A stretch of DNA of 64,000 nucleotides from Planctomycetota bacterium (GCA_016872835.1 VGYX01000001.1:1-64000); one strand, 5' to 3'; counted from the stretch's first letter, positions 975-53,500 are shown. A program made the numbers and translations. The notes: generated from the sequence alone by a model not told the origin.

Positions 975-1332
975 TGGGTCTGGACCTCGGGAAAGTGTGG
1001 AATACGGCGAAATTGTGGCACCAAACCACGGCAAATCAAAATCGATCAACTTGACAACCTTGAAAATCGCTTGGTGCCCCATGATTCCCACCAGCGAGCA
1101 CCTCAGGGCGCAGCCAGGGACACCACCCGGTCCCGAGCGGCCATTGAGGCGATACGCCCCGCGGCCGAGGCGCCCACCGCCCATTTCCACCAACCCAACG
1201 CCCCAAATCCACCCCCGCAGGCAGGCGAAAAACCGCTAGAATCAGGCAGTTTCAGCGTCGAACCTCGCCCTCCGTGCCGGCCAGTTGCCGACACCGCCGG
1301 CAGGGCCCCGCGCGGCCACTCGGAGACCTCGC
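975..1332. other. Divergent intergenic region, promoters presumed
   Basis: This 358-base gap separates the leftward FGE-domain gene from the rightward sucA. It contains the only AT-rich patch nearby (about 1000-1070), as expected for promoters. On the minus strand a TTGATT/CACAAT pair with 16-base spacing is a weak sigma-70-like candidate for the FGE gene. A TTGACA on the plus strand at 1051 has no matching -10 box. No gene, RNA or repeat is recognised in the gap. Confidence 0.4.
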
Positions 1333-4212
<2,880 letters not shown>

Positions 4213-4259
4213 TCGCGAACCGCGGCCGCTGAATGCGCCGCACGCACGGAGACCCGACC

Positions 4260-5465: not shown

Positions 5466-5691
5466 TCCGCGCGATGACCCGACTCGGAAAGTTCACGCTT
5501 GATCCACACCGTGCGTGTGAGGTCGCATGGGAGTTATCTGATCCTTGTGCTCCGCTCGATTTCCTCGACGACAGGAATCCAAAAGCGGAAACAGGCGATC
5601 GAGGAATTCGTCGCTTCGCCCGAAAAGGCGTTGCCCCGGAAAACGGAATTCCCCGCAAGAGCTCGGCGGGCGCTGAAATCGCCCACCTCTC

Positions 5692-6195
5692 ATGCGACAA
5701 ACTGATGGACAAGCGCACGGGTTTCGATACATTTTTCGAATGTCCGGGGATGGACCTGTTTTCAATGACATGACGCAGCTTGTGAACCTCGCCGCTTCCG
5801 GGGATGAGCAGGCAGCTGCACGCGTCTGGGGGGGCATGTACGAGGACCTGCGCGACACCGCGCGTCGCGTGCTGGGCCCGACCCCGCTCAACGGCGTGGG
5901 CCAGCCGGGCCCGACCACCCTTGTGCACGAGGTGTTCCTGAAGGTCTTCAAGGGATCCGGAACGCCACCCAACTTCGAGAATCGCCGGCACTTTTTTGGA
6001 TCGATGGCGCGTGCGATGGGCCAATTCCTGGTCGACTTCCGACGGCATCATCGACGCGAGAAGCGCGGCGGCCTTGTCCGCACCATTCCGCTTGGGGTGG
6101 ACGTGGAGCATCTCGCGCAGTTCGATGACGCGTTGCTGCTCACCGATAGTGGCCTTGACCCTCCCCCGCTGTTGAGTCCACCGTCTACGCAGTAG
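5692..6195 (+). CDS. Truncated ECF sigma factor (planctomycete-expanded type), region 4 missing
   Basis: The protein matches the N-terminal half of the ECF sigma group expanded in planctomycetes. It shows the region 2 layout TQLVNLAASGDEQAAARVW, PGPTTLVHEVFLKVF and RRHFFGSMARAMGQFLVDF, then the basic stretch RRHHRREKRGG. After the conserved DDALLLTDS segment the frame continues into a Pro-rich tail and stops. The region 4 helix-turn-helix that recognises the -35 element is absent. Intact members are longer by roughly a sigma-4 domain. Internal ATGs at 5740 and 5770 are equally possible starts, and none has a good ribosome site. It is probably a decaying gene or, less likely, a region-2-only protein. 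A WD40 remnant lies just downstream, consistent with a deletion through a former sigma/kinase-WD40 pair. Confidence 0.7.
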   Translation: MRQTDGQAHGFRYIFRMSGDGPVFNDMTQLVNLAASGDEQAAARVWGGMYEDLRDTARRVLGPTPLNGVGQPGPTTLVHEVFLKVFKGSGTPPNFENRRHFFGSMARAMGQFLVDFRRHHRREKRGGLVRTIPLGVDVEHLAQFDDALLLTDSGLDPPPLLSPPSTQ

Positions 6196-6217
6196 TCGTC
6201 CGATTCGGAAGCCGCTG

Positions 6218-6252
6218 CTGGACGGCCCGGAGCGAAGCGGAGGGCGGTCCAG
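6218..6252. repeat. Imperfect inverted repeat at the sigma/WD40 remnant junction
   Basis: The arms CTGGACGGCCC (6218-6228) and GGGCGGTCCAG (6242-6252) pair with a single mismatch around a 13-base purine-rich loop. No T-run follows on either strand, so an intrinsic terminator is not supported. It sits exactly between the truncated sigma factor and the WD40 fragment and may mark the deletion junction. Confidence 0.5.
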
Positions 6253-6292
6253 CCGTGATCGCCTCCGGTGCCGGCGGGCGGTATCCGAGCGC

Positions 6293-6472
6293 GCCACAGG
6301 CGAGCAGCTGATCAGCGTGCTCGGGCATCCACCAGGCCGAATGGTGCATGCGGTGGAGTTCTCGCCGAGCGCGTCGCATGTCGTGACGTTGGACGTGGGC
6401 GGTGGGCTCGCGATCTGGGACACGCGCGGGCCTCGAAACGCCGCAGGCGCGCTCAACGAGCCGGATCAGTGA
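6293..6472 (+). pseudogene. C-terminal fragment of a WD40-repeat protein (likely former kinase-WD40 partner)
   Basis: The frame has no start codon but reads as one WD40 repeat plus tail: TGEQLISVLGH, then VEFSPSASHVVTLD and GGGLAIWDTRG, ending at TGA 6470-6472. The spacing of the GH, FSP and WD elements is that of a single blade. Just upstream, in another frame, VIASGAGGR looks like part of the preceding blade, which suggests a frameshift as well as loss of the 5' part. In planctomycetes this sigma type is often followed by a Ser/Thr kinase with WD40 blades, so the fragment is probably what is left of such a gene. Its end overlaps the end of ftsI on the other strand by 7 nt. Confidence 0.65.
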
Positions 6473-8328
6473 CGATCCGGCTCGTTCCGGACGCTCGCGA
6501 GTTGCTCGGCCCTCTTGGGGTCCTGATCGGGCGTGACACCCATGTACTCCAGCGTCTCATCGATCACGTCGCGGCACACGGGGCCCGCGATGCTTCCGCC
6601 GAAGTGACCCTTGCCCTTGTCCGGATCGTCGATCACCGTCAGGCACACGATGCGTGGGTTTCGATAGGGCGCGCCGGCGATGAACGAGGCGGTGTATCGA
6701 TCGTCGTAGTAGCCCTTGCCTTGGCCCTTCGGCTTGGCCAAGTGCGCGGTGCCCGACTTGCCGAACATGCGGTAGAGCGCGCTCTGCGCCTTGCGACCGG
6801 TGCCCTCGGTGACCACACCCTCCATCGCCTCGCGCGCCTGCAGCGCGATCGCCTCGGGCAGCACCCGCTTGGCGGCCAGTGCGCTGGGGCGCTCGGCCTC
6901 CGCACTGCCAAGCATCAGTCGCGCCGGCACCATCGTGCCGTCACGGCAGAACGCGCTGAAGGCCTGCACCATCTGCACCGGCGTCACGCTGATCTCGTAA
7001 CCCATGCACACGCTGGACTGCGTGTACTTCGACCATGACTTCGACGAAGTCACACGGCCTTCGCTCTCGCCAGGAATGCCGACGTTCGTGCGCTGGCCGA
7101 AGCCGAAGCGCCGTACCGCGTCCTGCATCTGTGCGAAGGTCATGCGCTCGGCGGCCTTCACCATGCCCAGATTGAGGCTCTTCATGAGCACGGTCTTCCA
7201 CGAGACAGGGCCGTAGTACTTCACGTCCGTGATCAGGCGTCCGAAGGGCGTGCGGTAGGGACCGTGGCCCAGCGGAAGCACGGATTCTGGCTTGAACTTC
7301 CCAAGCTCGGTTGCGACGGCCCAGACGAAGGGCTTGAACGTGGAGCCCGGCTCGTAGGGATCGGTGACGTTCCGGTTGCGGCCGAGCGACGGATGGATGC
7401 CGCGTGACGGATCCGTGGTGACCTCGGTCCAGCCGCGACGCGGGGTCAGCGCGTCCGCGATCGCCAGGATGTCGCCTGTCTCGACATCCATGACCACGCA
7501 ACGACCGCCGCCCGCATGGAAACCCTTCACCGCCTCACGCAGGTTGCGTTCGGCGATCTCCTGCACCACCAGATCGATCGACAGCCGCACATCCTCGCCA
7601 TCCTTCGAAGGGCGGTAGTCGCGCTCATCGATCCACAGCGGCCGCATGCGCGCGTCTCGCAGGAACGCCAGATTGCCATCCGAGCCCTGCATGGCAGTGT
7701 CATGCGCCAGCTCCGCACCCGACTGACCCTTGCGTTCCGTACCGATGCGTCCTACCACCTGCGCGGCGATGTCGCCCGCCGGATAGGTGCGCTCGGGATA
7801 GCTCTCCACGCCGACACCCTTCAGATTCAGGCGTCGGATCTCGGCCACCTGCGCATCGCTGAGGCCCTCGGCCACGATGTGGTAGCGGTCTTCCGCACGG
7901 CGACGCAGCTCCGCTTCGATCTCGGAAGGCCGCCTTTCCAGAATGCTGCCGAGCGCCAGCGAGATGTCCTTGAACGGATCCGCCGTGGCCTGCGAGTCGG
8001 GATCCGCCCTCTGCGCCTTGCGGACACGCTCCCATCCGTGCTCCCAGATGAGCGCGGGATCCACGAACACGCGACGTGCCATCAGGCTGGTCGCAAGCAC
8101 ACGGCCCCGCCGATCCAGGATCTGGCCGCGCTCGGCGAGTTCGCGCGCGTCACTGCGATGCGTGCCTGCAGCGCGCTCGAGTTGCTCGTTCGGATTCGTC
8201 TTCAGCCACGCGATGCGGGCGGACGTTCCAAGCAGAGCCACGATCACGCAGGACACGAGCACGCGGCCGCAACTCCGGGTACGCCACGCCTGCACCTCGG
8301 AAACACTCGTGATCGACTGGCGCATCAT
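6466..8328 (-). CDS. ftsI: Peptidoglycan D,D-transpeptidase FtsI / penicillin-binding protein 3
   Basis: Class B penicillin-binding protein that cross-links septal peptidoglycan. It has an N-terminal cytoplasmic stub and membrane anchor (about residues 21-37), a pedestal domain, and the transpeptidase domain from about residue 245. All three active-site motifs are present: STFK at 329-332, SLN at 384-386, and KSG at 524-526 in MFGKSGTAH. The product is 620 residues. The start is ATG 8328 or the adjacent ATG 8325, with GGAG 8 nt upstream. It overlaps the ftsL-like stop (ATGA), which implies translational coupling. It is the last gene of the long minus-strand run. No extra C-terminal PASTA domains are seen. 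Confidence 0.92.
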   Translation of the reverse strand: MMRQSITSVSEVQAWRTRSCGRVLVSCVIVALLGTSARIAWLKTNPNEQLERAAGTHRSDARELAERGQILDRRGRVLATSLMARRVFVDPALIWEHGWERVRKAQRADPDSQATADPFKDISLALGSILERRPSEIEAELRRRAEDRYHIVAEGLSDAQVAEIRRLNLKGVGVESYPERTYPAGDIAAQVVGRIGTERKGQSGAELAHDTAMQGSDGNLAFLRDARMRPLWIDERDYRPSKDGEDVRLSIDLVVQEIAERNLREAVKGFHAGGGRCVVMDVETGDILAIADALTPRRGWTEVTTDPSRGIHPSLGRNRNVTDPYEPGSTFKPFVWAVATELGKFKPESVLPLGHGPYRTPFGRLITDVKYYGPVSWKTVLMKSLNLGMVKAAERMTFAQMQDAVRRFGFGQRTNVGIPGESEGRVTSSKSWSKYTQSSVCMGYEISVTPVQMVQAFSAFCRDGTMVPARLMLGSAEAERPSALAAKRVLPEAIALQAREAMEGVVTEGTGRKAQSALYRMFGKSGTAHLAKPKGQGKGYYDDRYTASFIAGAPYRNPRIVCLTVIDDPDKGKGHFGGSIAGPVCRDVIDETLEYMGVTPDQDPKRAEQLASVRNEPDRH

Positions 8329-8666
8329 CCGCCGAACTCCACGGTCGGCCGATCGCGCTCCTCGTCCGGCTCCTGACGAGTGGCCAGTCGGGGCTGCGTG
8401 GGCTTGTTCGGCGCATCCATACGGTACGGAATCGGCTGCCAATCCAGCTTCAACGCCGCGATCGCCTTGCGAACGGCATCGGGCTTGACGGCCGTCGCCA
8501 CCGCGGCGCGTCGCCGGCCGATGTCACGCTCCTGTTCCTGCAGCCGCCAATGACCGCGCGAGATCTCGGCCACCTGCTCGAAGCGCTGATGCCGCAACGC
8601 CAACAGCGCCGTGGCCATCAGGCCCAGCGCGAACACGATGGCGATGCTCTTACCGAACATGCGCAA
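8325..8666 (-). CDS. FtsL-like small division protein
   Basis: A 113-residue protein with one N-terminal membrane helix (FGKSIAIVFALGLMATALLAL). A short, probably coiled-coil segment follows (about residues 28-60, QVAEISRGHWRLQEQE), then a charged tail. Sequence similarity to FtsL is weak, as is normal for this family. The call rests on topology and place: it lies between rsmH and ftsI, where ftsL sits in dcw clusters. FtsL works with FtsB and FtsQ to activate septal synthesis by FtsW-FtsI. A second in-frame ATG (residue 3) could be the true start. The stop overlaps the ftsI start. Confidence 0.6.
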   Translation of the reverse strand: MRMFGKSIAIVFALGLMATALLALRHQRFEQVAEISRGHWRLQEQERDIGRRRAAVATAVKPDAVRKAIAALKLDWQPIPYRMDAPNKPTQPRLATRQEPDEERDRPTVEFGG

Positions 8667-8672
8667 TGCGAT

Positions 8673-9470
8673 TCAGCGATCAGCGCCCTTGGCGGCGACC
8701 GGCTTCTTCGTCGGCTTCTTCGCGGGCTGCTTGGGCGCGGGCTTCGCGGCGGGCTTCGTCGCGGCCTTGGCCTTGGACTCTGGCTGCGGCTTCACCTCAA
8801 GCGTCACTTCGCCGCCGATCGGTGTGCGCGAATCGATGGTCACGATGTCTGCTGCGGCCATCGCGGCCACGGGCGTCTCGGGCGCCACAGCGGGCACGCT
8901 CGCCGACTCGGTCTTGCGCGCGGCGCCGGGCTTCAGCACCTCGACGGGCGGAATGCGGATCGTCACGCCCTTGCGGATGCGGGTCGGATCCGGAACCGCC
9001 TTGCGGTTGTACTTCGCGAGCGCCGTCGACAGCGAACCATCTCCGTACTCACGCTTGCAGATCGCGTAGAGCGTCTCGCCATCGGCGATCGGGTGCATCT
9101 TCACGCCTGGCTCGCTCTCCTGCTTCGACGCCACGCGACGGGTCTCCGCTTGTGGCGTGGAACCCACCGGCTGGACGGTCGAACTGACCTGCTGGGTTGC
9201 GGGCATCGACGAGATCGGCGTGACGGCGCTGGCCTGCTGGATCCCCGTGCCGCTTGGCTCAAGCTGCTGCGGCTGCAGCGACACCGTGCCCGCCGCGGGC
9301 ATTGGCGCCAGCGAGATCGAACGTGGCGCGCGATCACTCGCGGTCGATGCCACGCCGAAGGCGACGGATTCCTGACGATGGGCCGCGCTGAAGTGATCGC
9401 TCACCAGGATTCCCACGAAGAGCAGGAGTCCGAAACCGACCACCAGCGCCAACTTGTTCTCTCGTGTCAT
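8673..9470 (-). CDS. Membrane-anchored LysM protein with Lys/Ala/Pro-rich tail
   Basis: A 265-residue protein. Residues 7-24 form a single membrane helix (LALVVGFGLLLFVGILV). A Ser/Gln/Pro-rich linker follows, then one LysM domain at about 125-173 (IADGETLYAICKREYGDGSL, ending RIRKGVTIRIPP), expected to bind peptidoglycan glycan strands. The last 45 residues are a low-complexity Lys/Ala/Pro tail (AKPAPKQPAKKPTKK). It lies between rsmH and the ftsL-like gene, where no LysM gene is standard. A role in tethering the division machinery or envelope to peptidoglycan is inference from location. Confidence 0.8.
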   Translation of the reverse strand: MTRENKLALVVGFGLLLFVGILVSDHFSAAHRQESVAFGVASTASDRAPRSISLAPMPAAGTVSLQPQQLEPSGTGIQQASAVTPISSMPATQQVSSTVQPVGSTPQAETRRVASKQESEPGVKMHPIADGETLYAICKREYGDGSLSTALAKYNRKAVPDPTRIRKGVTIRIPPVEVLKPGAARKTESASVPAVAPETPVAAMAAADIVTIDSRTPIGGEVTLEVKPQPESKAKAATKPAAKPAPKQPAKKPTKKPVAAKGADR

Positions 9471-9521
9471 GTCGCATCCTTGCGTTGCGCCCGGACGTGC
9501 TGCCGTCCGTGCATTCGTCCA

Positions 9522-10481
9522 TCACCCCGCCGCGGAAGCATCCTCCTTCCGCGACTCGATTCGGGCGGCCCTCAGCTTGGCCGACCGAGAACGGGGATTG
9601 TCTCGTTGCTCCATCTCGCTTGCCACCATGGGCTTGCGCGTGATCCGGGTGGCCCATCCTTGGCGTTCCCAGTCCGCGAAAGCTCTCTTTGTGGATCGGT
9701 CCTCGAGGCTGTGGAAGGACAGAATTGCCACGCGACCTCCCACCGCCAGCCACGAGGCGGGTCCAGATGCCGCCTCTGAGGCTGCTTTCCCAAGGTCCGA
9801 AAGGAAGTTATTCAGACTGTTCAACTCTCCATTCACCGCGATCCGGAGAGCCATGAAGGTTCGCGTTGCGGGATGGACGCGACTCTGCCGAGCGCGAGCT
9901 CCATAAGCTCTTACCACAGCCTGAGAAAGATCTTGTGTCGTTCGCAGGCCGCCCTCGTTCCGTCGATCGATGATGGCACGTGCGATTCGGCGCGCAAAGG
10001 GATCCTCGCCCAGGTTGTAGATGAGGTCCGCCAACTCCGACTCGCGCATGCGACCAAGCAACTCCGCAGCGGTGGGCCCCTGTGATCGATCCAGCCGCAT
10101 GTCCAGCGGTCCCTCGGTCTGAAACGCGAAGCCGCGCGCAGGGTCATCCATTTGCGTGCTCGCGAAGCCAAGGTCCGCCATCACCACATCGGCCCGAAGC
10201 CCCTGACTTTGCAGCACCGATGCGATGCGATCGAAATTCCCGTGCACTGGAATCACGCGCGGCGGCTGCGGGAGCGCACGGATCCGCTCCGCCGCGAACG
10301 CAAGATTGCCCGCATCCAGATCCATCAGCACCAGCGTGCCGCTCGGGCCGATCCGACGCGCCATCAATTCGGCATGACCCCCGCGCCCGGCGGTGCCATC
10401 GAAGGCCGTCTCGCCCGGAGCCGGCGCAAGCGCCTCCAGCACCTCGGCCGCGAGCACCGGGAGATGGCCGATGGACTCCAT
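9522..10481 (-). CDS. rsmH: 16S rRNA (cytosine(1402)-N(4))-methyltransferase RsmH
   Basis: SAM-dependent methyltransferase (formerly MraW) that N4-methylates C1402 of 16S rRNA in the ribosomal P site. The 319-residue product has the family length. It shows the SAM-binding loop (FDGTAGRGGHAELM) and the LMDLDAGNLAFA acidic strand. It also has the family signatures MADLGFASTQMDDPARGFAF, DLIYNLGEDPFARRIARAI and ILSFHSLEDRSTKRAF. rsmH is usually the first gene of a dcw cluster. Here it follows 9 nt after a WecA-type transferase and precedes the LysM, FtsL-like and FtsI genes. Confidence 0.95.
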   Translation of the reverse strand: MESIGHLPVLAAEVLEALAPAPGETAFDGTAGRGGHAELMARRIGPSGTLVLMDLDAGNLAFAAERIRALPQPPRVIPVHGNFDRIASVLQSQGLRADVVMADLGFASTQMDDPARGFAFQTEGPLDMRLDRSQGPTAAELLGRMRESELADLIYNLGEDPFARRIARAIIDRRNEGGLRTTQDLSQAVVRAYGARARQSRVHPATRTFMALRIAVNGELNSLNNFLSDLGKAASEAASGPASWLAVGGRVAILSFHSLEDRSTKRAFADWERQGWATRITRKPMVASEMEQRDNPRSRSAKLRAARIESRKEDASAAG

Positions 10482-10490
10482 GCGCTTGGC

Positions 10491-11786
10491 TCAGTGCAGG
10501 TCGCGCGCGGGCGTAGGCTCGGCGGTCGGTGCGATCGGAGCGGCATCTGCCGCACGCTCCGCCGTCTTCATCTGGATCTGCCAGCTGGCCTGACGAGCGG
10601 TCTTGATCGCCATGGCCGAGATGAAGGCGAAGAACGCGAACGCCAGCGACATCACCGCCAGCACGCGCGTGCCCGTCAATTGCCGCGTCGCCGCCATCGC
10701 GACCCCGAGGATCGCGAAGCACACCGTGATCGCGTACAGCGCGAACACCGCGCGCTTCACGGTTCCCAGCGAGCGCTTCAGAAGATGGTGGATGTGATTG
10801 CTATCGGCGCTGTGAAACGGCATGCCGGCCATCTTGCGACGAATGATGGCAAGCACCGTGTCCAGGATCGGAAGCGAGAACACCACCAGACCCGCGACGA
10901 CGAGCTCGGTCTGACCATTCTCGCCGAAGCTCATGATGATCACGACGCACAGGTAGCCAAGCAGCAGGCTTCCGCAGTCGCCCAGGAAGATGATCGCGGG
11001 ATTGAAATTGAACGGCAGGAATCCCAGGGTCGCCCCAAGCAACGCCAGCGAAAGCATCACGCGCATGCCGACCAGCGACATTTCAGGATCGACGACCGGA
11101 TCCGTCATGGCCATGATCAGGCTGATGCCGAGCAGGCCGATCGCCATGATCGCCGTGGTTCCCGAGAGCAGACCGTCCAGCCCATCGATCAGGTTGGCGG
11201 AGTTGCATCCTCCCAACACGAACAGCGCGACGAGTGCCGTCCCGACCCAGTAGAAAAGTTCGGAGTTCCGGATGACCAACGAGCCGACGCTGAACAACGA
11301 GAGATCCGGAGGCCCGAATATGGGCATCAGCACACCCTCGGCCAGCTTCGGTCCGACTTCCTCGATCGCGAGCGCGGCCGCCGCCACCAGCTGACCCGCC
11401 ACCTTCAGTCGTGGATCCCACTTCCAGATGTCGTCGGCCAGACCGGTGAACACGATGGCGACCATGCCGATCACCACCGAGAACGGCACCACACGAAGCA
11501 GACCTGCCTCGCCACGCGTCAGGAACGCCGCCGCGACCAGCGATGCGACGACTCCCAAGAAGACCGCCAGACCTCCAAGGTAGGCCACCGGATACGAATG
11601 CAGCTTCCGCTGTCGATCCGGCATGTCGACGATGCCGGCATTCACGGCGACCTTGCGGACGATCGGCGTGGCGAGCAGGGTCACCACAAATGCCGTGAGG
11701 AACACCGGCGCGTAGCCGTTGAGCAGTTCCAGAGGACCGAAGATCACGCCTTCAGCCTGCGCGGGCGGTGCGGTGACGGCGCTCAT
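10491..11786 (-). CDS. WecA/MraY-family polyprenyl-phosphate glycosyl-1-phosphate transferase
   Basis: An integral membrane enzyme that transfers an N-acetylhexosamine-1-phosphate (or related sugar) from a UDP-sugar to a polyprenyl phosphate, starting a surface glycan. At 431 residues it has about ten or eleven membrane helices. Catalytic motifs are present: GLADDIWKWDPRLK (paired Asp), NLIDGLDGL, FNPAIIFLGDCGSLLLGY (usually GDSG) and the His-rich loop SNHIHHLLKR. These point to the WecA/TagO branch rather than MraY. The sugar is not determinable. The start ATG 11786 overlaps the upstream epimerase stop as ATGA. The C-terminal 40 residues are a cytoplasmic Ala/Pro tail. It links the polysaccharide genes upstream to rsmH downstream. 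Confidence 0.88.
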   Translation of the reverse strand: MSAVTAPPAQAEGVIFGPLELLNGYAPVFLTAFVVTLLATPIVRKVAVNAGIVDMPDRQRKLHSYPVAYLGGLAVFLGVVASLVAAAFLTRGEAGLLRVVPFSVVIGMVAIVFTGLADDIWKWDPRLKVAGQLVAAAALAIEEVGPKLAEGVLMPIFGPPDLSLFSVGSLVIRNSELFYWVGTALVALFVLGGCNSANLIDGLDGLLSGTTAIMAIGLLGISLIMAMTDPVVDPEMSLVGMRVMLSLALLGATLGFLPFNFNPAIIFLGDCGSLLLGYLCVVIIMSFGENGQTELVVAGLVVFSLPILDTVLAIIRRKMAGMPFHSADSNHIHHLLKRSLGTVKRAVFALYAITVCFAILGVAMAATRQLTGTRVLAVMSLAFAFFAFISAMAIKTARQASWQIQMKTAERAADAAPIAPTAEPTPARDLH

Positions 11787-12781
11787 GCGGCCTCCCCGTG
11801 CGCTGCGCCCGTTCGAATGGCCTGTGCCAGATCGGCGATGGTCTGGTCCAGACCAATGCGCGGCGCGAAGCCGATGGCGCGACGAATCCGCGTCAAGTCC
11901 GGCTGGCGTGCACGAAGATCCTCGAAGCCAGGCCCGTAGGCCGTTTCGTAGGGCAGGTGCACCAACGCGGAACCGCTCTTCAATTGACGCACGACCCGCT
12001 CCGCGAGCGCGCGGATCGTGATCGGCTCGTCGGAGCCCACATTGAACACGCCGCCCGCGGCATCGGCGCTTCCAAGCAACGCGTCGAGCGCGTACGTCAC
12101 GTCGCGCACGTCGGCGAAGCATCGGCTCTGCAGCCCGTCACCGTGGATCTCGAGCGCACGTCCCACGAGCGCCGCCTCGACGAAGCGAGGCAGCACCATG
12201 CCCCAGCGGCCGATCTGCCGCGGTCCCACCGTGTTGAAGATGCGCGCGATCACCACCGGCAGCCCCTGGGCTCGCCACGCGGCCAGTCCCAGCCACTCGT
12301 CGAGCGCCTTCGCGCAGCCGTAGCTCCAGCGGACCACGCCCGTCGGTCCGTACACCACATCGTCGCCCTCGGCGAATGGAAGTTTCGCGGCCTTGCCGTA
12401 CACCTCGCTGCTGCTGGCGATCAGGATGGGCGCCTCATGTCGTCCGGCGATCCGAAGCGCCGCCGACGTCTCGATCACGTTCGTCTCGATGGACTGCACG
12501 GGCTGCTCCATCACGCGCCTGACACCGACCGCAGCCGCGAGATGGAAGATCCGGCTGGGCGCCTCGGAAAGATCGGTCCGCGCGACATCCGAGACCGTGG
12601 CTCGAATGAAATGCAGGCGATCGCCTGCTTGGATCCGGGCGTCGCGAAGGTTGGCCTCGCTTCCCGTCGACAGGTCATCCACGACGATCACCCGCTCGCC
12701 TCGGGCAAGCAGTCGATCGACGAGGTGCGAGCCGATGAAGCCGGCTCCGCCTGTCACAAGGATGGGTCCGGATGTGGACAC
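11783..12781 (-). CDS. NAD-dependent nucleotide-sugar epimerase/dehydratase (extended SDR)
   Basis: A 332-residue extended short-chain dehydrogenase acting on a nucleotide sugar. It has a Rossmann loop ILVTGGAGFIGSHLVDRLL, the IFHLAAAVGV strand, a serine cluster ASSSEVYGKA and the catalytic YGCAK (Tyr-x3-Lys). The later SDR motifs RIFNTVGPRQ and FNVGSDEP are also present. It resembles UDP-glucuronate decarboxylases and UDP-sugar 4-epimerases, but the substrate cannot be fixed by eye. I chose GTG 12781, four bases after the upstream stop, because the Rossmann motif follows within 10 residues. The location implies it supplies a sugar for the glycan initiated by the neighbouring WecA-type transferase. 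Confidence 0.85.
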   Translation of the reverse strand: MSTSGPILVTGGAGFIGSHLVDRLLARGERVIVVDDLSTGSEANLRDARIQAGDRLHFIRATVSDVARTDLSEAPSRIFHLAAAVGVRRVMEQPVQSIETNVIETSAALRIAGRHEAPILIASSSEVYGKAAKLPFAEGDDVVYGPTGVVRWSYGCAKALDEWLGLAAWRAQGLPVVIARIFNTVGPRQIGRWGMVLPRFVEAALVGRALEIHGDGLQSRCFADVRDVTYALDALLGSADAAGGVFNVGSDEPITIRALAERVVRQLKSGSALVHLPYETAYGPGFEDLRARQPDLTRIRRAIGFAPRIGLDQTIADLAQAIRTGAAHGEAA

Positions 12782-12785
12782 AGGA

Positions 12786-15032: not shown

Positions 15033-15048
15033 GGTGGGTGGTCCTCGT

Positions 15049-18000
15049 TCACTGGAGGGACTTGATGATCCGGTCGCGGTCGGCGACCTGTTCGTCGTTC
15101 AGCTTGAGCGGGGCGAGTCTCTCGAGCGTAGACCGCGCCTCGTCCTTCCGGCCCGCGGCAGCCAGCGCCTCCGCCAGATGCAGGATGGGAGAGGCACTGG
15201 GCGCCATGGTGACCGCACGCTGCAACGGCCCAAGCGACTCCTGTGCCTTTCCTGACTTCAGCAGCACGTACCCCAGGGTGTCCTGAAGGTCGGCGACCTG
15301 AGGCGCGATCTCGACGGCCTTGGTGGCCCAGGCGATGGCCTTGTCCGGCGCGTTGCCGCACTTGGCGGTCACGAAGGCCGCGTTGTTCAGCGCCGGCGCC
15401 GAATCGGGCTGCAGCGTGATCGCCTTCTCGAAGAGAGGCAGCGAACGCTGACACTCTCCCATCACGTAAGCGATCTCACCCGCCTCGATGAACGCGGAAC
15501 TTGCGAGCTGCGCATCGTCCTTGGCGGCGGCGGCAGCCTCCTCGAGGTACTTGATCGCGGATTCGGTGCCGGTCTTGCCCTGCTGTCGCCACACCGTGGA
15601 CAAGCCGCGCAGGTGATGGAAGTCCGGTGCCTGGCCGGCGAGCGCGTTACGCGCGAAGGCTTCGCCCTCCTGCGGTCGATCCAGGAACGACTGCGCGAGC
15701 GCGCGGTACCAGAGATCCCAGGTGACCGCGGGGTAAGTGCCCTTCGCGATACCCTCGCGGATGCTGGCGTGCGCGTTGCGCAGCGCCTGCAGGCCGGCGT
15801 CTCGCTGCTTGGATTTGATGAGCGCCGCACCCAGCGCGCACTGGAGCGCGGGGCTCGTGGCCACGAGCTTGGGATTCGCGCGCAGTTGCGTCACCACGCC
15901 GGCCCAGTCCTCATCCTTTCGCTGCACGCGCGAATTGACCGCCCGCATGAGCGCCTCCTCGGTCGGGTCGGTCGCGAACGCGCGATCAAAAGCCGCCGTG
16001 GCCTCCTGCTCCTTGCCCTGCGACTGGTTGATCGTGGCGATGATCGTCGGCCACTCGGCGCTTCGTGGCTCGACCTGCGCAGCCTCCTCCGCCACCAAGA
16101 TCGCGCGGATCTGGTTCTCCGAGCGCATCAGCAGCTCGATGAGCAGTCGTCGACCTTCCTGTGACTGCGGCGCCGCCCGCACGAATTGCTCAGTCAGCAG
16201 GATCGCCGCCGGAAGGTCGTTGCGATCCAGCAAAACATCCTTCTTCACGCGGATCGCCGGCAGGTACGTACTCAGCAGCCCCAACGCGCGATCCGCCGCC
16301 TTCTCGGCGGCCTGCAGGCGCGCAGGATCGCGCGTGCGCAGGAACGCGTTTCGCTCCGCGTCGGCCAGACCAGCCCACGCCACGAAATTGTTCGGGGCGA
16401 TGTCCGCCGCGCGCCTGTATGTCTCGACCGACTTCTCGGCGGCCGTGGCGGCTGCGGCGCCGTCGCCGGCGGCCATCGCGGCCTCGGCCTGACCACCAAG
16501 AATCGCGGCGCGCAACAGCGCGACGGTGCTGTCCGAGCCACCCAGCGTCTTCTCGGCCAGATCGACGAAGCGGACGGCCGCTTCGTAGTCGCGAAGGTTC
16601 TGGCAGATCTCGGCCAGTCGCAGCGCGAGCTTCGCCTGCGCCTCGCCCGAAAGCGCCTGAACCACCGGCTCCAGCACGTCCCGCGCACGCTTCCACTGCT
16701 GGCGGTTGAACCAGAAGTCGGACACCTGGATCTCGGCGTTGCGGACCGCCGGATCCTGCAGCTTGATCGCCTCGGCAAACGGCTCCGCGGCCCGCTCGGG
16801 TTGGCCGTTCTCGGCCAGGTACGCGCCGAGGGAGAGCCAGAGTCGAAGCGCTGCCGCACCCTGCACCTTGGCGATGTCCGCGCGCAACGACGCCTCGCCC
16901 TCCTTCACCTGTCCAAAGCGCGCAAGGGCTCGGGCCTTCATGAGCGCAAGCAGCGGCTCGTCAGGCGTCTGCTTCTGCAGAAGGTCCACGATCTGCATGC
17001 CCAGATCCACGTTGGCCTGCGCGGCCTGCTGCAATTCGCGGGTGCGTGTCAGCGGCGTCATCGCCTGCAGCTTCTCCGGCGTGAACTTCCGCCGACCCTC
17101 GGCGTCCAGCATGATGGTTGGATCGCCGGGATTCTCCAGAAGCATCTGCGCCAGCGCCATCGAGTTGGCGCGGAATCCGGGCGCGTCGTTGTATAGACGG
17201 CGGCGCATCGCGCAGGCGCCCGTGCGGTCGCCGACCTGGGCCTCGATGATGAGCCACGCGTCCATGGTGTCGCGATTCGTTGGATTCGCGCGCGCCAGTT
17301 CCCGAAGAATGTCGAGCGCACGCGTGCGCTGGCCGCTTCGATCCAGCATCAAGGCATAGAGACGTGCCGTGTTGATCTCGTTGGGACGGCGGTCGTAGGC
17401 AAGACGGATCGCCTCAACGGCCTCTTCCAGCCGGCCGGAACGCTCCAGAAGGAGGCAGATCTGGCGAAGCAGCATCGGGGACTCGTCACCCGCCTTACGC
17501 GCGGCCTCCAGAAGCTGCAGCGCCTCGCTCTGCTTGTCCTGCGCCAGCAACGCACGTGCACGCAGCGTCGCACCGATGCCGCGTTCGCCGATGTCATCGG
17601 CGACCGCCGCGATGCGTTCGCATGTCTGCCAATCCTTGGCTTGAGCCGCGTCCAGCGCAGCGCGCTCCAGCAGGGCTTCGCTGCGTGGGTCGGCCTTCAA
17701 CGCCTCATCGAGCGACTTCGGCATCATCGCGCGCACGCGATCCAGCGCACCCTTCTCGATCGTACGGTCCGCCTCGGGCAGGTCGGGGATCAGCAGCGTC
17801 TCCTCGAGCTCACGCGTGAGGTCCGACAGCGCGAGGTAGCGATAGACCGACTGCACGCGCGGGTCCGGATACTGCAGGCGGACACTCTCCAGCACGCGAT
17901 CCAGCGGGTCCTTCGACGAGAGCGCCGCCTTGAACTGCAGCAGACGCTCCTCGTTCGGCTGCGCCTCCAGTCCCTTGTCGATCCATTCCTTCGCCTTCAC

Positions 18001-19818
18001 CGGATCGTTCCGAACCAGCGCGTAGAACTGCGCCAGTGCGACCAGCAGTCGCGCGTCGCGCGGATCCGTCTTGATCCCCTTGTAGCCCGCAAGCAGGTCC
18101 GCCTCGGCTCCATCCAGATCGCGCGTAAGCAACTTTCGCTCGGTACTTCCAAGCAGCGCGGCGATCGCATCGCTCTGGTTGGCCATGGCGGCACCGGCGG
18201 CCGTCATCTCCATGCCGCGCAGCCCCTCCAGCCTCGCCTTCGCGGTGGCGAGGGACGGATCGATCTCAAGCACGCGCTCGTAGGTCCGCCGCGCCTGGTC
18301 ATACCGACCTGTGGCGGACTCGATCTCGCCGCGCATCATCAGCAGCGGGGTGTAGACGGGGTATCGCTCCATACCCTCGTTCGCGACCCGCATGGCGCTA
18401 CCGGCCTCGCGACGCGCAAGATTCGCGAACGCCGCGTACAGGTACGCATCGGGGGGCGGCGTGGCCTGGCCCTTCAGGATCGTGTCGAACAGCGCCACGG
18501 CATCGGCCACGCGATTCTCGGCGATCGCCGCCTTCGCCTGGATCAGCTGCGACGTGCCGCGCTCACCGATGGACTCGAGGAACTTCACGGCCTCGTCGCG
18601 CATCGAGGCCATCTGTGGAAGCATGGCCGCGCGCTTCGCCTCGTCGGGCTCCTGACGCCACCGCTCGAACATGGTGTTGAACAGCGTGATCACCGCATAC
18701 ATGCGGGCCTCGTCCTGCACGAGTGACTCGAGCGAGACGGGCAGGTTCGGCATGCCGCGCGTCTCCTCGGCGACCTCGCTTGCAAGGTCCGGCTTCGACT
18801 GCGTGGCGGCGACCATCAGCAGGCGTCGGGCGACCATGTCCTGCGGATGACGGCGAATGCGCTCCTCCATCAGCGAGATGACTCGATCCAGCCACACGTT
18901 GCTGCGTGCGTTCAGCAATTCCGCGGCGATCTGCAGCGTCTTGGCGCGGTCGTCCAGGACCGTTTCCGCCACCTCGGAGAGCTTCTTGCGCGCGTCCTCG
19001 ACCTGTTCGCCGGTCACGCCAGGCTCGCGACGATCCACGCGCCCGCGCAACCGCCTGAGTTCCGCGATGCGCCATGCGTAGCTGTTTGGCAGCGCCTTCC
19101 GAGCGCGCGCGATGTTCGTGTCCAGCTGTTCAAAGAGGCGACGCGCGTCCCCCACGCGCTGGTCCGACAAGAGCTTTTCCGCGCCCATTTCCTGCGATTG
19201 CAGCAGGTCCAGCCACGCGTCTTCCATCGAGGGATCCACAGCCACGACCTCCTCCAGCAGCTTCTCCGAGTCCCGGCGCTCCTGCTCGGTGATCGTCTCG
19301 GACCGACGCAGCGAGCCGATGGCCTTCCAGTACTTGAGCCGGTTCTGGGCCGGGTCGGTCGCTGGAATGCGCTGCGCCACGTTCTCGGCCTCGGTCGTGA
19401 ACTCACGCCACAGCACGTCCGCGTTGAACGCGTTGTTGCGGTCGTACAGGGTTTCCATCGCGCGCAGCCACGGAGCGGGATCCTCGGGTGTCGCGCGGGC
19501 TCGCTGCAGACGCACACCGATCAGCTGGTTGTAGTAGTCGCGCGCCTCGTCGGTGGTGGCGGGCACGAACTGCGACAGCGCCTGATCCAGCGCCTCCAGA
19601 TAGCGCACCTCGGTCTGGCGCCGGTTGACGGCGCGCCCGAAGAACCCGATCGCCTTGCGGTAGTCGCCATCCTTCATGTAGCGCTCACCGGCGGCGAAGT
19701 TGCGCTCGGGTCCGGCCACGCGCTGCCAGTACAGCGCGAAACCGATCAGGCCGACGCCCACCACCAGGATCGCCAGGAAGATGCCGATGAAACGCAGGTT
19801 GAGCTTGGACTTCGCCAT
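15049..19818 (-). CDS. Giant TPR-repeat protein of the exosortase/EPS locus
   Basis: A 1589-residue protein with one N-terminal membrane helix (residues about 9-30, FIGIFLAILVVGVGLIGFAL). Tetratricopeptide-like helix pairs then fill nearly the whole length, for example ERYMKDGDYRKAIGFFGRAV near the start and AQESLGPLQRAVTMAP near the end. A periplasmic or membrane-facing scaffold is expected. In PEP-CTERM/exosortase systems a long TPR protein (PrsT type) is commonly encoded beside EpsH/EpsI and export proteins, and I infer the same role here. It starts 2 nt after epsI and is followed 16 nt later by the Wzc-like gene. No catalytic motif was seen. Confidence 0.85.
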   Translation of the reverse strand: MAKSKLNLRFIGIFLAILVVGVGLIGFALYWQRVAGPERNFAAGERYMKDGDYRKAIGFFGRAVNRRQTEVRYLEALDQALSQFVPATTDEARDYYNQLIGVRLQRARATPEDPAPWLRAMETLYDRNNAFNADVLWREFTTEAENVAQRIPATDPAQNRLKYWKAIGSLRRSETITEQERRDSEKLLEEVVAVDPSMEDAWLDLLQSQEMGAEKLLSDQRVGDARRLFEQLDTNIARARKALPNSYAWRIAELRRLRGRVDRREPGVTGEQVEDARKKLSEVAETVLDDRAKTLQIAAELLNARSNVWLDRVISLMEERIRRHPQDMVARRLLMVAATQSKPDLASEVAEETRGMPNLPVSLESLVQDEARMYAVITLFNTMFERWRQEPDEAKRAAMLPQMASMRDEAVKFLESIGERGTSQLIQAKAAIAENRVADAVALFDTILKGQATPPPDAYLYAAFANLARREAGSAMRVANEGMERYPVYTPLLMMRGEIESATGRYDQARRTYERVLEIDPSLATAKARLEGLRGMEMTAAGAAMANQSDAIAALLGSTERKLLTRDLDGAEADLLAGYKGIKTDPRDARLLVALAQFYALVRNDPVKAKEWIDKGLEAQPNEERLLQFKAALSSKDPLDRVLESVRLQYPDPRVQSVYRYLALSDLTRELEETLLIPDLPEADRTIEKGALDRVRAMMPKSLDEALKADPRSEALLERAALDAAQAKDWQTCERIAAVADDIGERGIGATLRARALLAQDKQSEALQLLEAARKAGDESPMLLRQICLLLERSGRLEEAVEAIRLAYDRRPNEINTARLYALMLDRSGQRTRALDILRELARANPTNRDTMDAWLIIEAQVGDRTGACAMRRRLYNDAPGFRANSMALAQMLLENPGDPTIMLDAEGRRKFTPEKLQAMTPLTRTRELQQAAQANVDLGMQIVDLLQKQTPDEPLLALMKARALARFGQVKEGEASLRADIAKVQGAAALRLWLSLGAYLAENGQPERAAEPFAEAIKLQDPAVRNAEIQVSDFWFNRQQWKRARDVLEPVVQALSGEAQAKLALRLAEICQNLRDYEAAVRFVDLAEKTLGGSDSTVALLRAAILGGQAEAAMAAGDGAAAATAAEKSVETYRRAADIAPNNFVAWAGLADAERNAFLRTRDPARLQAAEKAADRALGLLSTYLPAIRVKKDVLLDRNDLPAAILLTEQFVRAAPQSQEGRRLLIELLMRSENQIRAILVAEEAAQVEPRSAEWPTIIATINQSQGKEQEATAAFDRAFATDPTEEALMRAVNSRVQRKDEDWAGVVTQLRANPKLVATSPALQCALGAALIKSKQRDAGLQALRNAHASIREGIAKGTYPAVTWDLWYRALAQSFLDRPQEGEAFARNALAGQAPDFHHLRGLSTVWRQQGKTGTESAIKYLEEAAAAAKDDAQLASSAFIEAGEIAYVMGECQRSLPLFEKAITLQPDSAPALNNAAFVTAKCGNAPDKAIAWATKAVEIAPQVADLQDTLGYVLLKSGKAQESLGPLQRAVTMAPSASPILHLAEALAAAGRKDEARSTLERLAPLKLNDEQVADRDRIIKSLQ

Positions 19819-19820
19819 GT

Positions 19821-20687
19821 TCAGTTCGTCTTGGGTGAGGAGTTTGTGGACGCGGTGTCACCGCGTTCGATCGCGGGCCAGTCCGGAAGGCACCGCATGA
19901 GGTGCGGAAGAATGGTGTCAAGCAGTTCCGCGGTCATGCGGTCGAATTGAGGCAGGACATCATCCGGGCCACCCGGCAACTGCGCGGAGAACTGCAACTT
20001 GCAATAGTAGGCGTACCGATCCGAGAGCTTGAAGCTCAGGTTTCGCACCGCCATTGCCGACGGCGTCACGGCGCCGTTGGCGATGAACAGGTACCCCCCG
20101 AGGGCGGTGGCCTTCGGATTCCGTGGATCCTGGAACGCCGTGACGGTCATCTCCATCTTGCCCAACGGCATGGACACCATCTCGGTCTTGCGCGTGATGG
20201 GATCCCGGACTTCCGCCAGCGCGTAACGCTCGCCAGAGCCCGGTTGCACGGGACCGCTCGCCTCATCCCATCCGTTGCGGCTCAACTGCACCGGACGGAC
20301 CATCGGCTGTCCGGTCATCACGAGACCGTTCGCGTTCCAGCACCGTTCCGGAATGTGCGGCACGGCGTCGATCATGCCGGTGTAGTACGCCGCGTGCACC
20401 TGCATGAGTCCCTTCGCGGGGTCTCCGTCGATGGCGTAGAAACGGTCCAGGTAGTTCTGCGTGCCGAGCTCCTCGATCAGCGCGTCGGAGAACACGGAGT
20501 CCTTGCCGATCTGCTTCCACGATCCAAGGGCCGCGGGCAGCGAATCCAGCGGCTCGCGCAGCGAGACGGACTCCTTCCTCAGGTAGACCTGCAACTGACC
20601 CAGCGCCACGCGGAATCCGGCGCCGCCAAGGGCCAGCGCGGCGCATCCGGCGATGAAGGCGCTTCGCACGCCACGATCAACCTGCAT
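19821..20687 (-). CDS. epsI: EpsI-family exosortase-associated protein
   Basis: A 288-residue protein with an N-terminal membrane anchor or signal (about residues 8-28). It has the EpsI family body: a PAALGSWKQIGKDSVFSD segment, HAAYYTGMIDAVPHIPERCW around the conserved Cys, and a C-terminal half-domain ending near LPDWPAIERG. EpsI proteins accompany exosortases (fused or adjacent) in exopolysaccharide and PEP-CTERM loci; their biochemical role is not settled. The start ATG 20687 lies inside the exosortase 3' end (11-nt overlap) with AGGAGG 6 nt upstream, so expression is coupled to the exosortase. Confidence 0.88.
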   Translation of the reverse strand: MQVDRGVRSAFIAGCAALALGGAGFRVALGQLQVYLRKESVSLREPLDSLPAALGSWKQIGKDSVFSDALIEELGTQNYLDRFYAIDGDPAKGLMQVHAAYYTGMIDAVPHIPERCWNANGLVMTGQPMVRPVQLSRNGWDEASGPVQPGSGERYALAEVRDPITRKTEMVSMPLGKMEMTVTAFQDPRNPKATALGGYLFIANGAVTPSAMAVRNLSFKLSDRYAYYCKLQFSAQLPGGPDDVLPQFDRMTAELLDTILPHLMRCLPDWPAIERGDTASTNSSPKTN

Positions 20688-21612
20688 AGCCGGCCTCCTG
20701 CGGGTCCGTCACGATCAGGTTGCTCAGGATCCACAGCACGAGCAGATAGAGCAGGAATGCCGGCACCAGCCAGAGCAGTCCGATGAAATGGTGGAACTCG
20801 CCCGCAGCGAATTCGGGGTTGACCAACGTCAACATGCCCAGCGTGGCCACGCGAAGCATGTTCACGAACACGGCCACCGGCACGCCCATCAGGACCAGCG
20901 CCGCCCGCTGCCAGATCGTCGGCAGGCTCACGTACGCCATCGCCACGCCCAGTGCAAGGAAAGCGACCAGCATGCGCATGCCGCTGCACGCCTCGGCCAC
21001 GTTCAGCAGATGTGGCTTGCCCGAGTCGAACACCGTGAGTACGTTGCCCGTCAGGTCCACATCCATGCCGAACAGGCTGAGCAGCAGATACGCGCCCTTG
21101 GCGGAGATGTCCTGCAGTCGATAGGTCACCACACTGATGAAGCGCTCGCTCACGTACTGGCCGAACACGACCACATAGGCAAGTGGGAACCAGAGCCATC
21201 GCATCCAACGCCAGCCCATGACGAGCAGCACCAGACCGAAGAGCGTCATGCCCACCGCGACGCCCCGCATGTTGTGATGCTGCAGGGCCGCGGGTCCGAG
21301 CGAGCAGACCGCGTAGCCCACGAGGCCCAGGATCACGAGCGCGAGACCGGACCACGCCGGACGCACTTCGGACTTCAACAGCGCCTCGCGACGCAACCAC
21401 ACGAACCATCCGCCGATGAAGGGGATGAGCAGCGTGTGACCCCAGTCCGACGGATGACTGAGCGAGTAGCGGACCTGCTTCGAAAGCCAATCCCAGAAGA
21501 CGACTGTGAAGAGCGCCAAAGCGATCGCACCCGCCAAGATCGCCCGACGGGCATCGATCTCGATGCCGCGATCGGAGCGGACTGCCGGGATTGCGGGTTG
21601 GGCCAGGCTCAC
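20677..21612 (-). CDS. Exosortase (EpsH/XrtA-type transmembrane cysteine protease)
   Basis: A 311-residue polytopic membrane protein with about eight helices. It carries the exosortase catalytic triad: Cys209 in NVAEACSGMRML, Arg254 in NMLRVATLGML and His274/275 in AAGEFHHFIGLLW. Exosortases cleave C-terminal PEP-CTERM-like signals and hand proteins to the surface or exopolysaccharide. The N-terminal HPSDWGHTLLIPFIGGWFVW segment is also typical. Start GTG 21612 has AGGAG 8 nt upstream. No PEP-CTERM substrate was recognised in the window, so targets lie elsewhere or use a variant signal. Confidence 0.92.
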   Translation of the reverse strand: MSLAQPAIPAVRSDRGIEIDARRAILAGAIALALFTVVFWDWLSKQVRYSLSHPSDWGHTLLIPFIGGWFVWLRREALLKSEVRPAWSGLALVILGLVGYAVCSLGPAALQHHNMRGVAVGMTLFGLVLLVMGWRWMRWLWFPLAYVVVFGQYVSERFISVVTYRLQDISAKGAYLLLSLFGMDVDLTGNVLTVFDSGKPHLLNVAEACSGMRMLVAFLALGVAMAYVSLPTIWQRAALVLMGVPVAVFVNMLRVATLGMLTLVNPEFAAGEFHHFIGLLWLVPAFLLYLLVLWILSNLIVTDPQEAGYAG

Positions 21613-21694
21613 GCGCGTTCTCCTGGGTTTGTCCGCGGGAGGGGCATCCGGACGCCTACGAGGTCGTCACGGTCCCGTTCACGCGTTCTTGGGC

Positions 21695-23455
21695 TCAGTT
21701 TCCGACCACATTGACCGGCGGTGCACCGAAGATGTCGTTGCCCCAGTTCCGGTCCACAAGGAAGCCGAAGCCGTAGGTCATGCGGAAGCCGTTCCGGATC
21801 ACTGCCAGCGGTGTCGCCCAGAAGTTGGTGCCGATGTTGATGTGATCGTCGGGGCGCAGGAAGATGTCGGGTTCGGATCGATTTCGGATGGCCGCAAGGT
21901 TCACGCGGATGCAGGCTTCCTTGTCGGTACCGATGCGACGGACCAGATCCACGCGCTGCGGAATCGCGAGCTCGCCAAGACCGCCCGCGGCCGCCACCAG
22001 ACGACTCAGCGTCAACTTTCCCGAGGTGGGAAGGTTGTACACGCCCGGTCGAGCGATCAGGCCGTCGATGTAGACCACACCCACGTCGCCCGTGTCGCAG
22101 TACAGCATGTCGTCGGGTCGGATGATGACGTTCAGGTTCGCCGCGCCACGAACGAGCTGGTTGTAGTCGATCTCGATGACACGGCTCTCGAAAGCCTTCT
22201 TGGCCTGGTTCTTCGTTCGGGCACGGGCGGCTTCACCCGTCTTCAAGCCAGGCGTGGCATCGGTCGCCACAGTCGCGGGAGCGGGGGATTCGGCCGATGC
22301 CGGCGCGGCGGCGGACTGCACTTCCCCGCTGCGACCCATCTTCACCCACGCCTGCGTGGCGGGATCGAAGACGAAGCGATCACCATCTTCGGGCACCGCC
22401 GAGGTCGCGGCTCCGACGTCCTTCGCCTTGGCTGGCTCCAGTGAATCGATGTCGACCGGCGGCTCCTGACGAGCACTGTTGCCAAGCATGCCCATGCGAG
22501 CTGGCTTGGGTTCGGCCGCGGGTTCCGGTTGCCCTGCGGGTGCGGGCTCGGCTGCAGGCGCCGCCGCCGGAGCCTCGGTGGTGGCCGGCGTATCCGAAGG
22601 CTTTTCGGCGGTTGGCTGTGGCGCTGCACCGGTCGGCGCAGCCTGCGGCGCAACGGGCGCGGATCCAGGAAGCGCATTGATCAGATCATCGATTGCGGAA
22701 TCCGAAGGCGTCGATGGAGCGGCGGGCTTGCCCGCCTCGACAGGAACGGTCGCTGGAGCCGTGCCCGCCGAAGTGTCGGCAGGCGTTGAAACCGGAGCGG
22801 TTCCGCCCGTGAAGCTGTTCTCGTACTGGGACGAAGTCGCCTTGGCGCGCGTGATCAGCACCCGCGTGGTGGTCGGCGCAGCTCCGCGCGCCAGCGCGAG
22901 CGCGTCAAGCACGCGCAGATCGGGCTTGTTCAGGGCGAACAGGCCAGGCTGCTCCACCGAGCCGAGCACGCGGAACTGGTAGGCCCGCGCCTCCTCGACC
23001 GAGATGAACGCCTTCGGATTGGTGATGACGCCTGCCAGACGCTTCTTGACATCCTCTTCCAGCTGCTCAACGGTCAGTCCGGCGGCGGGAGTCTGTCCGA
23101 TGATTGGCAGCGAAATGCGACCGGACTGGTCGATCACGCGCGTGGAGATGTCGGTCTGGTCCGCGGAGATGAGCTGCGGAATGGAGACGCGGATCACGTC
23201 GCCCGGTGCCAGCTTGTACTCCAGCTGGTTCGGGATCAGGTCCTCTGACGAGGGCTGGGTGTAGACGATGCTTGTGTCCGCCGCCTGTTCGATCACGTCG
23301 ATCCGGGTCAGGATCGGGATCGCGGTCGGAGTCGTCTGGAAATAGCCCGTTCGCTGGGGATCAATGAGCCAGCCGTTCGTCTCGCACGCGGTCATGGCCG
23401 CAAGGGACGCGACAAGGGTCATGATTCGAAGCGCGAAGTGCACAGTCGGGGTCAT
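21695..23455 (-). CDS. Outer-membrane polysaccharide export lipoprotein (Wza/Poly_export-SLBB type)
   Basis: A 586-residue protein starting at ATG 23455. The lipobox LAAMTAC puts the lipidated Cys at residue 24. Residues about 75-150 are the polysaccharide export domain (YKLAPGDVIRVSIPQL, RISLPIIGQ). A first SLBB domain follows (FRVLGSVEQPGLFALNKPDL). Residues about 225-430 are an unusually long Pro/Ala/Glu-rich linker, and a second SLBB domain is near the C-terminus (VGVVYIDGLIARPGVYNLP). Wza-type proteins form the outer-membrane channel for exopolysaccharide. The long disordered insertion between the SLBB domains is unusual. The gene is first in the minus-strand run, and the exosortase gene follows after 82 nt. 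Confidence 0.88.
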   Translation of the reverse strand: MTPTVHFALRIMTLVASLAAMTACETNGWLIDPQRTGYFQTTPTAIPILTRIDVIEQAADTSIVYTQPSSEDLIPNQLEYKLAPGDVIRVSIPQLISADQTDISTRVIDQSGRISLPIIGQTPAAGLTVEQLEEDVKKRLAGVITNPKAFISVEEARAYQFRVLGSVEQPGLFALNKPDLRVLDALALARGAAPTTTRVLITRAKATSSQYENSFTGGTAPVSTPADTSAGTAPATVPVEAGKPAAPSTPSDSAIDDLINALPGSAPVAPQAAPTGAAPQPTAEKPSDTPATTEAPAAAPAAEPAPAGQPEPAAEPKPARMGMLGNSARQEPPVDIDSLEPAKAKDVGAATSAVPEDGDRFVFDPATQAWVKMGRSGEVQSAAAPASAESPAPATVATDATPGLKTGEAARARTKNQAKKAFESRVIEIDYNQLVRGAANLNVIIRPDDMLYCDTGDVGVVYIDGLIARPGVYNLPTSGKLTLSRLVAAAGGLGELAIPQRVDLVRRIGTDKEACIRVNLAAIRNRSEPDIFLRPDDHINIGTNFWATPLAVIRNGFRMTYGFGFLVDRNWGNDIFGAPPVNVVGN

Positions 23456-23616
23456 CCTGGAAGTGGTCAACTCGATCGAGAAGGAGTAGGGCCGCGTGAG
23501 TCGGGGAAGACTACCCACCACCCACGGTCGCCTTTCATCGACCAATCCAGCCCCGTTCGAGGAGTTTGGATATTTTCGGACTTTGGCCGTGCGAAACGGA
23601 AAATTCGCCCAGCCCT

Positions 23617-24534: not shown

Positions 24535-24570
24535 GGCGCACACGATAGCCCCTCTAGGCGCACGGCGCAG

Positions 24571-51295: not shown

Positions 51296-53182
<1,887 letters not shown>

Positions 53183-53244: not shown

Positions 53245-53268
53245 CCTTCCCGAAACCGCTGAACGGCG

Positions 53269-53364: not shown

Positions 53365-53500
53365 GCACATTCTACCCATACTTTCCCGCAATCGCGACAC
53401 GACATTCCGGTTCACAGGTACCGGGATTGGAGGTTCCGGGTACCAGGGGTACGCCTGAGGAAACGTTTGCACGAGCCGAACCCCCAAGGCCGCACACACC

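Follow-up and report, generated by a model that had tools for sequence, protein, structure and literature searches.

An exosortase-linked exopolysaccharide gene run continues into a reduced division gene block in a clade of Planctomycetota

Introduction

The closest described counterparts of the locus analysed here are the division and cell-wall (dcw) gene cluster and the PEP-CTERM/EpsH locus. The locus lies in a 64,000-nucleotide stretch of a Planctomycetota bacterium (GCA_016872835.1 VGYX01000001.1:1-64000; hereafter the window, meaning the whole stretch), where eleven minus-strand genes run in one direction from 23455 to 6466 in the order wza-exosortase-epsI-tpr-wzc-epimerase-wecA-rsmH-LysM-ftsL-ftsI. 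As in the dcw cluster, rsmH, an ftsL-like gene and ftsI stand in the canonical order relative to one another and in the canonical orientation, and ftsL overlaps ftsI. Unlike that cluster, the window's series is cut off after ftsI, murE-murF-mraY lie on another contig, a LysM gene stands between rsmH and ftsL, ftsZ is missing and an exopolysaccharide operon stands directly upstream. With the PEP-CTERM/EpsH locus (Haft et al. 2006, PMC1569441) the window shares an EpsH-type exosortase, EpsI, a PrsT-like tetratricopeptide repeat (TPR) protein and Wza- and Wzc-like proteins encoded together, as well as PEP-CTERM-like tailed proteins elsewhere in the genome. It differs in that these tails, of a VPAPG type, score under the cut-offs, the bacterial tyrosine kinase (BY-kinase) motif is degenerate and the operon continues into division genes.

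In Streptococcus pneumoniae CpsCD is physically recruited by the divisome, which links capsule and division (PMC10233549, PMC4574921). The window resembles this system in its Wzc/CpsD-type protein and in the idea of a coordinated surface polysaccharide and septal wall, but the link here is one of gene order only, in an FtsZ-less lineage and with a degenerate kinase motif. It has been reported that all Planctomycetes lack ftsZ through loss and that Phycisphaerae retain division genes, ftsW among them (PMC10632474). A further likeness is found in sister lineages, where the same rsmH-LysM-ftsL-ftsI block is the tail of another operon; there, the host operon consists of the 2-oxoglutarate dehydrogenase genes sucAB. 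A search covering part of the literature found no publication that combines exosortase and dcw. We consider it probable (about 0.72) that two independent modules were joined by one inversion and that the division block is now the tail of the exopolysaccharide operon.

Results and discussion

An eleven-gene run on the minus strand

The first-pass annotation of the window had described eleven minus-strand genes in a row with tight gaps and overlaps. All are present in that order, with spacings of -11 to +82 nt:

21695-23455, minus: Wza-type outer-membrane polysaccharide exporter, first gene of the run (Poly_export E 5.7e-17, SLBB; EpsE family)
20677-21612, minus: exosortase, EpsH family (PF09721 E 2e-47; TIGR02602 over cut-off)
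19821-20687, minus: EpsI-like protein, DUF3485 (PF11984 E 9e-6, just below cut-off; sits after the exosortase in relatives)
15049-19818, minus: PrsT-like TPR protein of 1589 aa (TIGR02917 E 3.5e-44, below cut-off)
12786-15032, minus: Wzc-like chain-length protein with a degenerate BY-kinase domain (eps_fam E 2e-25)
11783-12757, minus: NAD-dependent sugar epimerase/dehydratase (PF01370 E 8e-46)
10491-11786, minus: WecA-type polyprenyl-phosphate sugar-1-phosphate transferase (PF00953; ECA_wecA the best NCBIfam match)
10482-10490, minus: wecA-rsmH junction of 9 nt, without a -10-like element in the 60 nt before the rsmH start
9522-10481, minus: rsmH (mraW), first gene of the division block (PF01795 E 5e-78; single copy in the genome)
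8673-9470, minus: bitopic LysM protein (NCBIfam PRK11198 LysM E 1e-7)
8325-8660, minus: FtsL-like small membrane protein (by position, size and topology, with an N-terminal membrane helix; conserved in relatives)
6466-8328, minus: ftsI, class B penicillin-binding protein (Transpeptidase E 1.5e-56, PBP_dimer; motifs STFK, SLN and KSGT)

Counted from each start to the previous stop, the gaps are 82 nt (wza-exosortase), -11 nt (exosortase-epsI), 2 nt (epsI-tpr), 16 nt (tpr-wzc), 28 nt (wzc-epimerase), -4 nt (epimerase-wecA), 9 nt (wecA-rsmH), 51 nt (rsmH-LysM), 12 nt (LysM-ftsL) and -4 nt (ftsL-ftsI). The value of 28 nt assumes that the epimerase starts at the GTG at 12757, which was picked from MILVTGGAGFIG.

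The fused order is conserved in one clade

Gene order was compared in 36 genomes of the same family and five from other families of the order. The genes flanking the run, which enter into this comparison, are as follows:

23617-24543, minus: pyrB-like aspartate/ornithine carbamoyltransferase (Pfam OTCace_N/OTCace; start codon approximate)
4233-5465, plus: sucB, 2-oxoglutarate dehydrogenase E2 (Pfam)
1285-4212, plus: sucA, 2-oxoglutarate dehydrogenase E1 (E1_dh, Transket_pyr, OxoGdeHyase_C)

pyrB lies 161 nt upstream of wza on the same strand, and sucB and sucA are located downstream of ftsI on the opposite strand, converging on it. The order of the window (state A) is kept in 17 of the 36 family genomes, from nine genera, which answers the conservation check set by the first-pass annotation. 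It reads pyrB>wza>exo>epsI>tpr>wzc>(epimerase)>wecA>rsmH>LysM>ftsL>ftsI, followed by the converging sucB and sucA, and wza to ftsI are co-directional in 17/17 as far as the contigs extend. The spacing between wecA and rsmH ranges from -4 to 77 nt in 16 of these 17, and start and stop overlap at this junction in about half of the genomes. A 1104-aa open frame in G102 had looked like a wecA-rsmH fusion protein and was rejected, the two genes being in different frames with an ATGA overlap of 4 nt.

In state B (nine genomes, four genera) the order is sucA>sucB>rsmH>LysM>ftsL>ftsI, with wecA...pyrB converging from the other side, and the sole difference from A is that the four-gene division block, which lies between wecA and sucB, faces the other way. 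pyrB adjoins the exopolysaccharide operon in both clades. State C (eight genomes, G209 on a 5.8-kb contig only) has sucA>sucB>rsmH... and no exopolysaccharide genes nearby. In two further family genomes and the outgroups neither sucAB upstream nor the exopolysaccharide operon nearby is seen. The rsmH start lies -11 to +30 nt from the sucB stop in G124, G164, G176, G182, G191, G127, G155 and G138 (among loci L044-L087), so that in sister lineages the division block looks like the tail of a 2-oxoglutarate dehydrogenase operon.

Genes beyond pyrB vary (GSDH is near pyrB in only two relatives, DUF72 in none). Since genes upstream of pyrB are rarely kept in relatives, the persistence of the wza-ftsI order exceeds chance. 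A wider set of named Planctomycetota/Phycisphaerales metagenome-assembled genomes, many from lakes, gave the same result, rsmH being next and co-directional in 31/31 Planctomycetota loci with sequence past wecA. As these loci were recruited by similarity to the window's wecA they favour clade A, and some of their contigs are shared with the 36-genome set. Outside the family, an exosortase lies within 20 kb of rsmH in at least a few genomes of the class and order samples. Two such cases, G112 (16.5 kb apart, with intervening genes on both strands) and G201 (6 kb apart, on opposite strands), proved to be different arrangements, and 32 loci from outside the family gave no wecA relative at a distance of up to ~1.5 kb from rsmH.

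Most family genomes are metagenome-assembled, and an assembly or binning artefact might have joined two loci. However, many genomes that were assembled separately in different projects share this junction, with proteins only ~50-60% identical, which makes this explanation extremely improbable. The fused order is a real, evolutionarily stable new variant of dcw gene order.

Two modules and a probable inversion

In an rpoB tree, which is independent of the locus, A forms one clade (bootstrap/SH-like approximate likelihood ratio test, 97/94), B is its sister (82/75), A+B is supported at 100/97 and C branches earlier. As rsmH comes straight after sucB in C as well as in B, B is most simply read as the older state and A as the derived one. 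This suggests that A arose through one inversion of the ~four-kilobase division block, its direction following from parsimony. The exopolysaccharide operon stops at wecA in clade C and in outgroup families, so that wecA can be taken as its ancestral last gene. That such modules are usually separate, as the first-pass annotation stated, agrees with the rest of the order, in which wecA closes the exopolysaccharide operon and rsmH either heads a unit of its own or comes after sucB.

In the history that we favour, the first module would be the exosortase-linked exopolysaccharide operon wza...wecA, which throughout the order forms a unit with wecA as its last gene, and the second the remnant dcw block rsmH-LysM-ftsL-ftsI, placed behind sucA-sucB in the ancestor of most of the family. 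The first module would have come to sit next to the second in convergent orientation, and a single inversion of the four-gene block would then have set rsmH against wecA. Since then the block would have been transcribed as the last part of the exopolysaccharide operon, its junctions being tight or overlapping and a -10-like element of its own being absent. The reduced division block would have stayed whole while its host context shifted through at least three settings, first its own promoter, next sucAB and lastly the exopolysaccharide operon.

Probable transcription across the wecA-rsmH junction

A scan of 5300-25000 gave no minus-strand match to a sigma-70-type promoter and no terminator-like site at any gene junction of the run. 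Terminator-like sites on the minus strand map to 12628-12613, inside the epimerase gene, and 24840-24828, upstream of wza; both strands together hold four, fewer than shuffles. Strong internal promoters or terminators separating the modules, which the first-pass annotation had named as refuting its view, are thus not seen, and because the order is also conserved in relatives a single transcript is likely.

The leaders of rsmH point in the same direction. In the outgroups, in which rsmH is apparently the first gene of its unit, the rsmH start is often preceded at 11-15 nt by a -10-like TA[TCA]NNT. Among held-out outgroup leaders, 12 of 20 have it at most 60 nt from rsmH (shuffle mean 3.8, P < 1/3000), ten of these elements being at -11 to -15. 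In clade A the element precedes rsmH in one of 16 genomes of the first set and in two of 24 held-out loci (shuffle mean 5.0), both far upstream and none at -11 to -15. A fused clade without this element is as expected if rsmH-ftsI depends on upstream transcription. We infer that co-transcription across the wecA-rsmH junction and dependence of the division genes on upstream transcription are likely. The division genes would most likely be expressed as an ordinary operon tail, by read-through with translational coupling at the overlaps.

It is also possible, if doubtful, that the run comprises two abutting transcription units, with an undetected promoter within wecA driving rsmH-ftsI and the order kept because inversions are rare. 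Planctomycete promoters are poorly described, and TACCCT occurs 31 nt before rsmH in one of 16 clade-A genomes; the overlapping wecA-rsmH start and stop codons in about half of the genomes and the contrast between outgroup and clade-A leaders at -11 to -15 argue the other way. Third-position identity between two genus members rises to 0.60 at the 3' end of wecA compared with a gene mean of 0.46, but this rise is no greater than in other genes.

Several observations weigh against a division block that was joined by inversion and is read as an operon tail. Support for clade B is only moderate (82/75). In G203 (locus L094) 4.27 kb separate wecA and rsmH, the only junction break in clade A, and the insertion holds an ECF (extracytoplasmic function)-sigma-like gene and a Ser/Thr-kinase-like gene. 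The junction in genera g2 and g109 is mostly 49-77 nt, leaving room for a weak promoter. The TA[TCA]NNT motif was first noticed in nine leaders of the same kind and then tested on held-out ones. Finally, a promoter of the run itself was not found: TA[TCA]NNT lies between pyrB and wza in 8 of 16 genomes with a shuffle mean of 11, and as the element is not enriched in this gap, the start of transcription may be at another place or may depend on a different sigma factor.

The pyrB-wza gaps of relatives contain GCCGAT in 11 of 20 cases (any 6-mer in shuffles ≤9), several as CCGATAAG. It is absent from the window's own gap (23456-23616). GCCGAT is a possible regulatory site and too weak for use as the promoter of the run.

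Is the association functional?

The first-pass annotation had further proposed that one transcript would couple glycan and exosortase activity to septal peptidoglycan synthesis. This proposal is not supported, as the sister clade is convergent and the same block occurs behind sucAB or alone in other relatives. We regard it as rather improbable that a need to make exopolysaccharide/exosortase products and septal peptidoglycan at the same time has preserved the fused operon. The junction has lasted across nine genera although the genes upstream of pyrB changed, clade B retains the same neighbours without a shared transcript, and the divisome-recruited CpsCD of pneumococcus (PMC10233549, PMC4574921) is a precedent for physical coupling. 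However, the convergent B genomes cannot share a transcript, the block follows sucAB in C and B and stands alone in other genomes, a Wzc-like protein without the Walker A lysine is unlikely to act as a kinase switch of the CpsD kind, and no exosortase substrate was found in the run, the candidates lying on other contigs. The block remained whole through a change of partner operon, which fits promoter sharing by chance rearrangement better than a functional link.

The locus thereby separates parts probably held together by function, namely the four-gene block including LysM, from the exopolysaccharide genes, which rearrangement placed next to them. A natural experiment for comparing expression is offered by the sister clades, which have the same genes in co-directional or convergent arrangement. 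Functional coupling, if true, would mean that selection keeps exopolysaccharide export, exosortase anchoring and septal peptidoglycan synthesis together, and the fused operon would then tie the surface coat genetically to division in an FtsZ-less lineage.

The reduced division block

The run was said to enter a dcw segment, and this applies to rsmH-LysM-ftsL-ftsI and to nothing more. rsmH and ftsI are co-directional and close to each other, with the ftsL-like gene, to which no family model matches, assigned between them by position and topology and overlapping the ftsI start by 4 nt. The mur genes, mraY and ftsW do not come after ftsI. Contig C13 carries murE-murF-mraY, with a PBP2-like/RodA-like pair nearby, and contig C6 has a candidate for FtsW. 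FtsZ (PF00091) has no match in the genome (2.39 Mb in 46 contigs, 99% complete), in a search that was positive in 13 of 14 control genomes.

The LysM protein, whose N-terminus reads MTRENKLALVVGFGLLLFVGILVSDH, is encoded next after rsmH in 41/41 genomes of the order and in 31/31 wider rsmH loci with sequence after rsmH. No published description of it was found in the literature searched. This class-wide gene may be a better lead on FtsZ-less division. Relatives carry two LysM repeats, the second of which appears degenerate in the window protein.

The exopolysaccharide operon and probable exosortase substrates

The polysaccharide export and priming genes (wza, wzc-like, epimerase, wecA) stand beside the exosortase, which carries the catalytic motif Cys209, Arg254 and His274 and is the single copy found in the genome. 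In clade C loci L189-L194 exosortase and EpsI lie in one open frame of 595-628 aa; they are two genes in A and B. The WecA-type transferase contains the motifs DDIW, NLIDGLDG and HIHH. Its identity as MraY was ruled out: the best curated family is WecA, and a separate MraY candidate lies beside murE-murF.

In the Wzc-like protein the Walker A motif reads SAMPEAGTTT, with the lysine replaced (GTTT instead of the usual GKST), and the Walker A' motif DANFRRP, retained in most homologues, is changed to GGNMRRP. The Walker A lysine was found in none of the operon homologues checked, in the family and the outgroups. Kinase function is doubtful because this lysine is absent, and the protein looks like an order-wide pseudokinase or one with an altered mechanism.

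About 12 secreted proteins encoded on other contigs of the same genome (loci L169-L182) end in the tail VPAPGAxALxGLAGLxARRRR, a PEP-CTERM variant. Each is individually under the PF07589 cut-off, the tails having been inspected after a search at loose threshold. TIGR02595 at default threshold gave no match in the genome and none in the controls either. The VPAPG-tailed proteins are probable substrates of the exosortase at 20677-21612.

Other features of the window

The ~1 kb between ftsI and sucB (5466-6465) is without a family match, and the close relative G218 has almost no sequence there. Farther along the window, a thiamine pyrophosphate (TPP) riboswitch on the minus strand (53264-53366) scores above the Rfam cut-off and lies upstream of a minus-strand open frame at 51296-53182.

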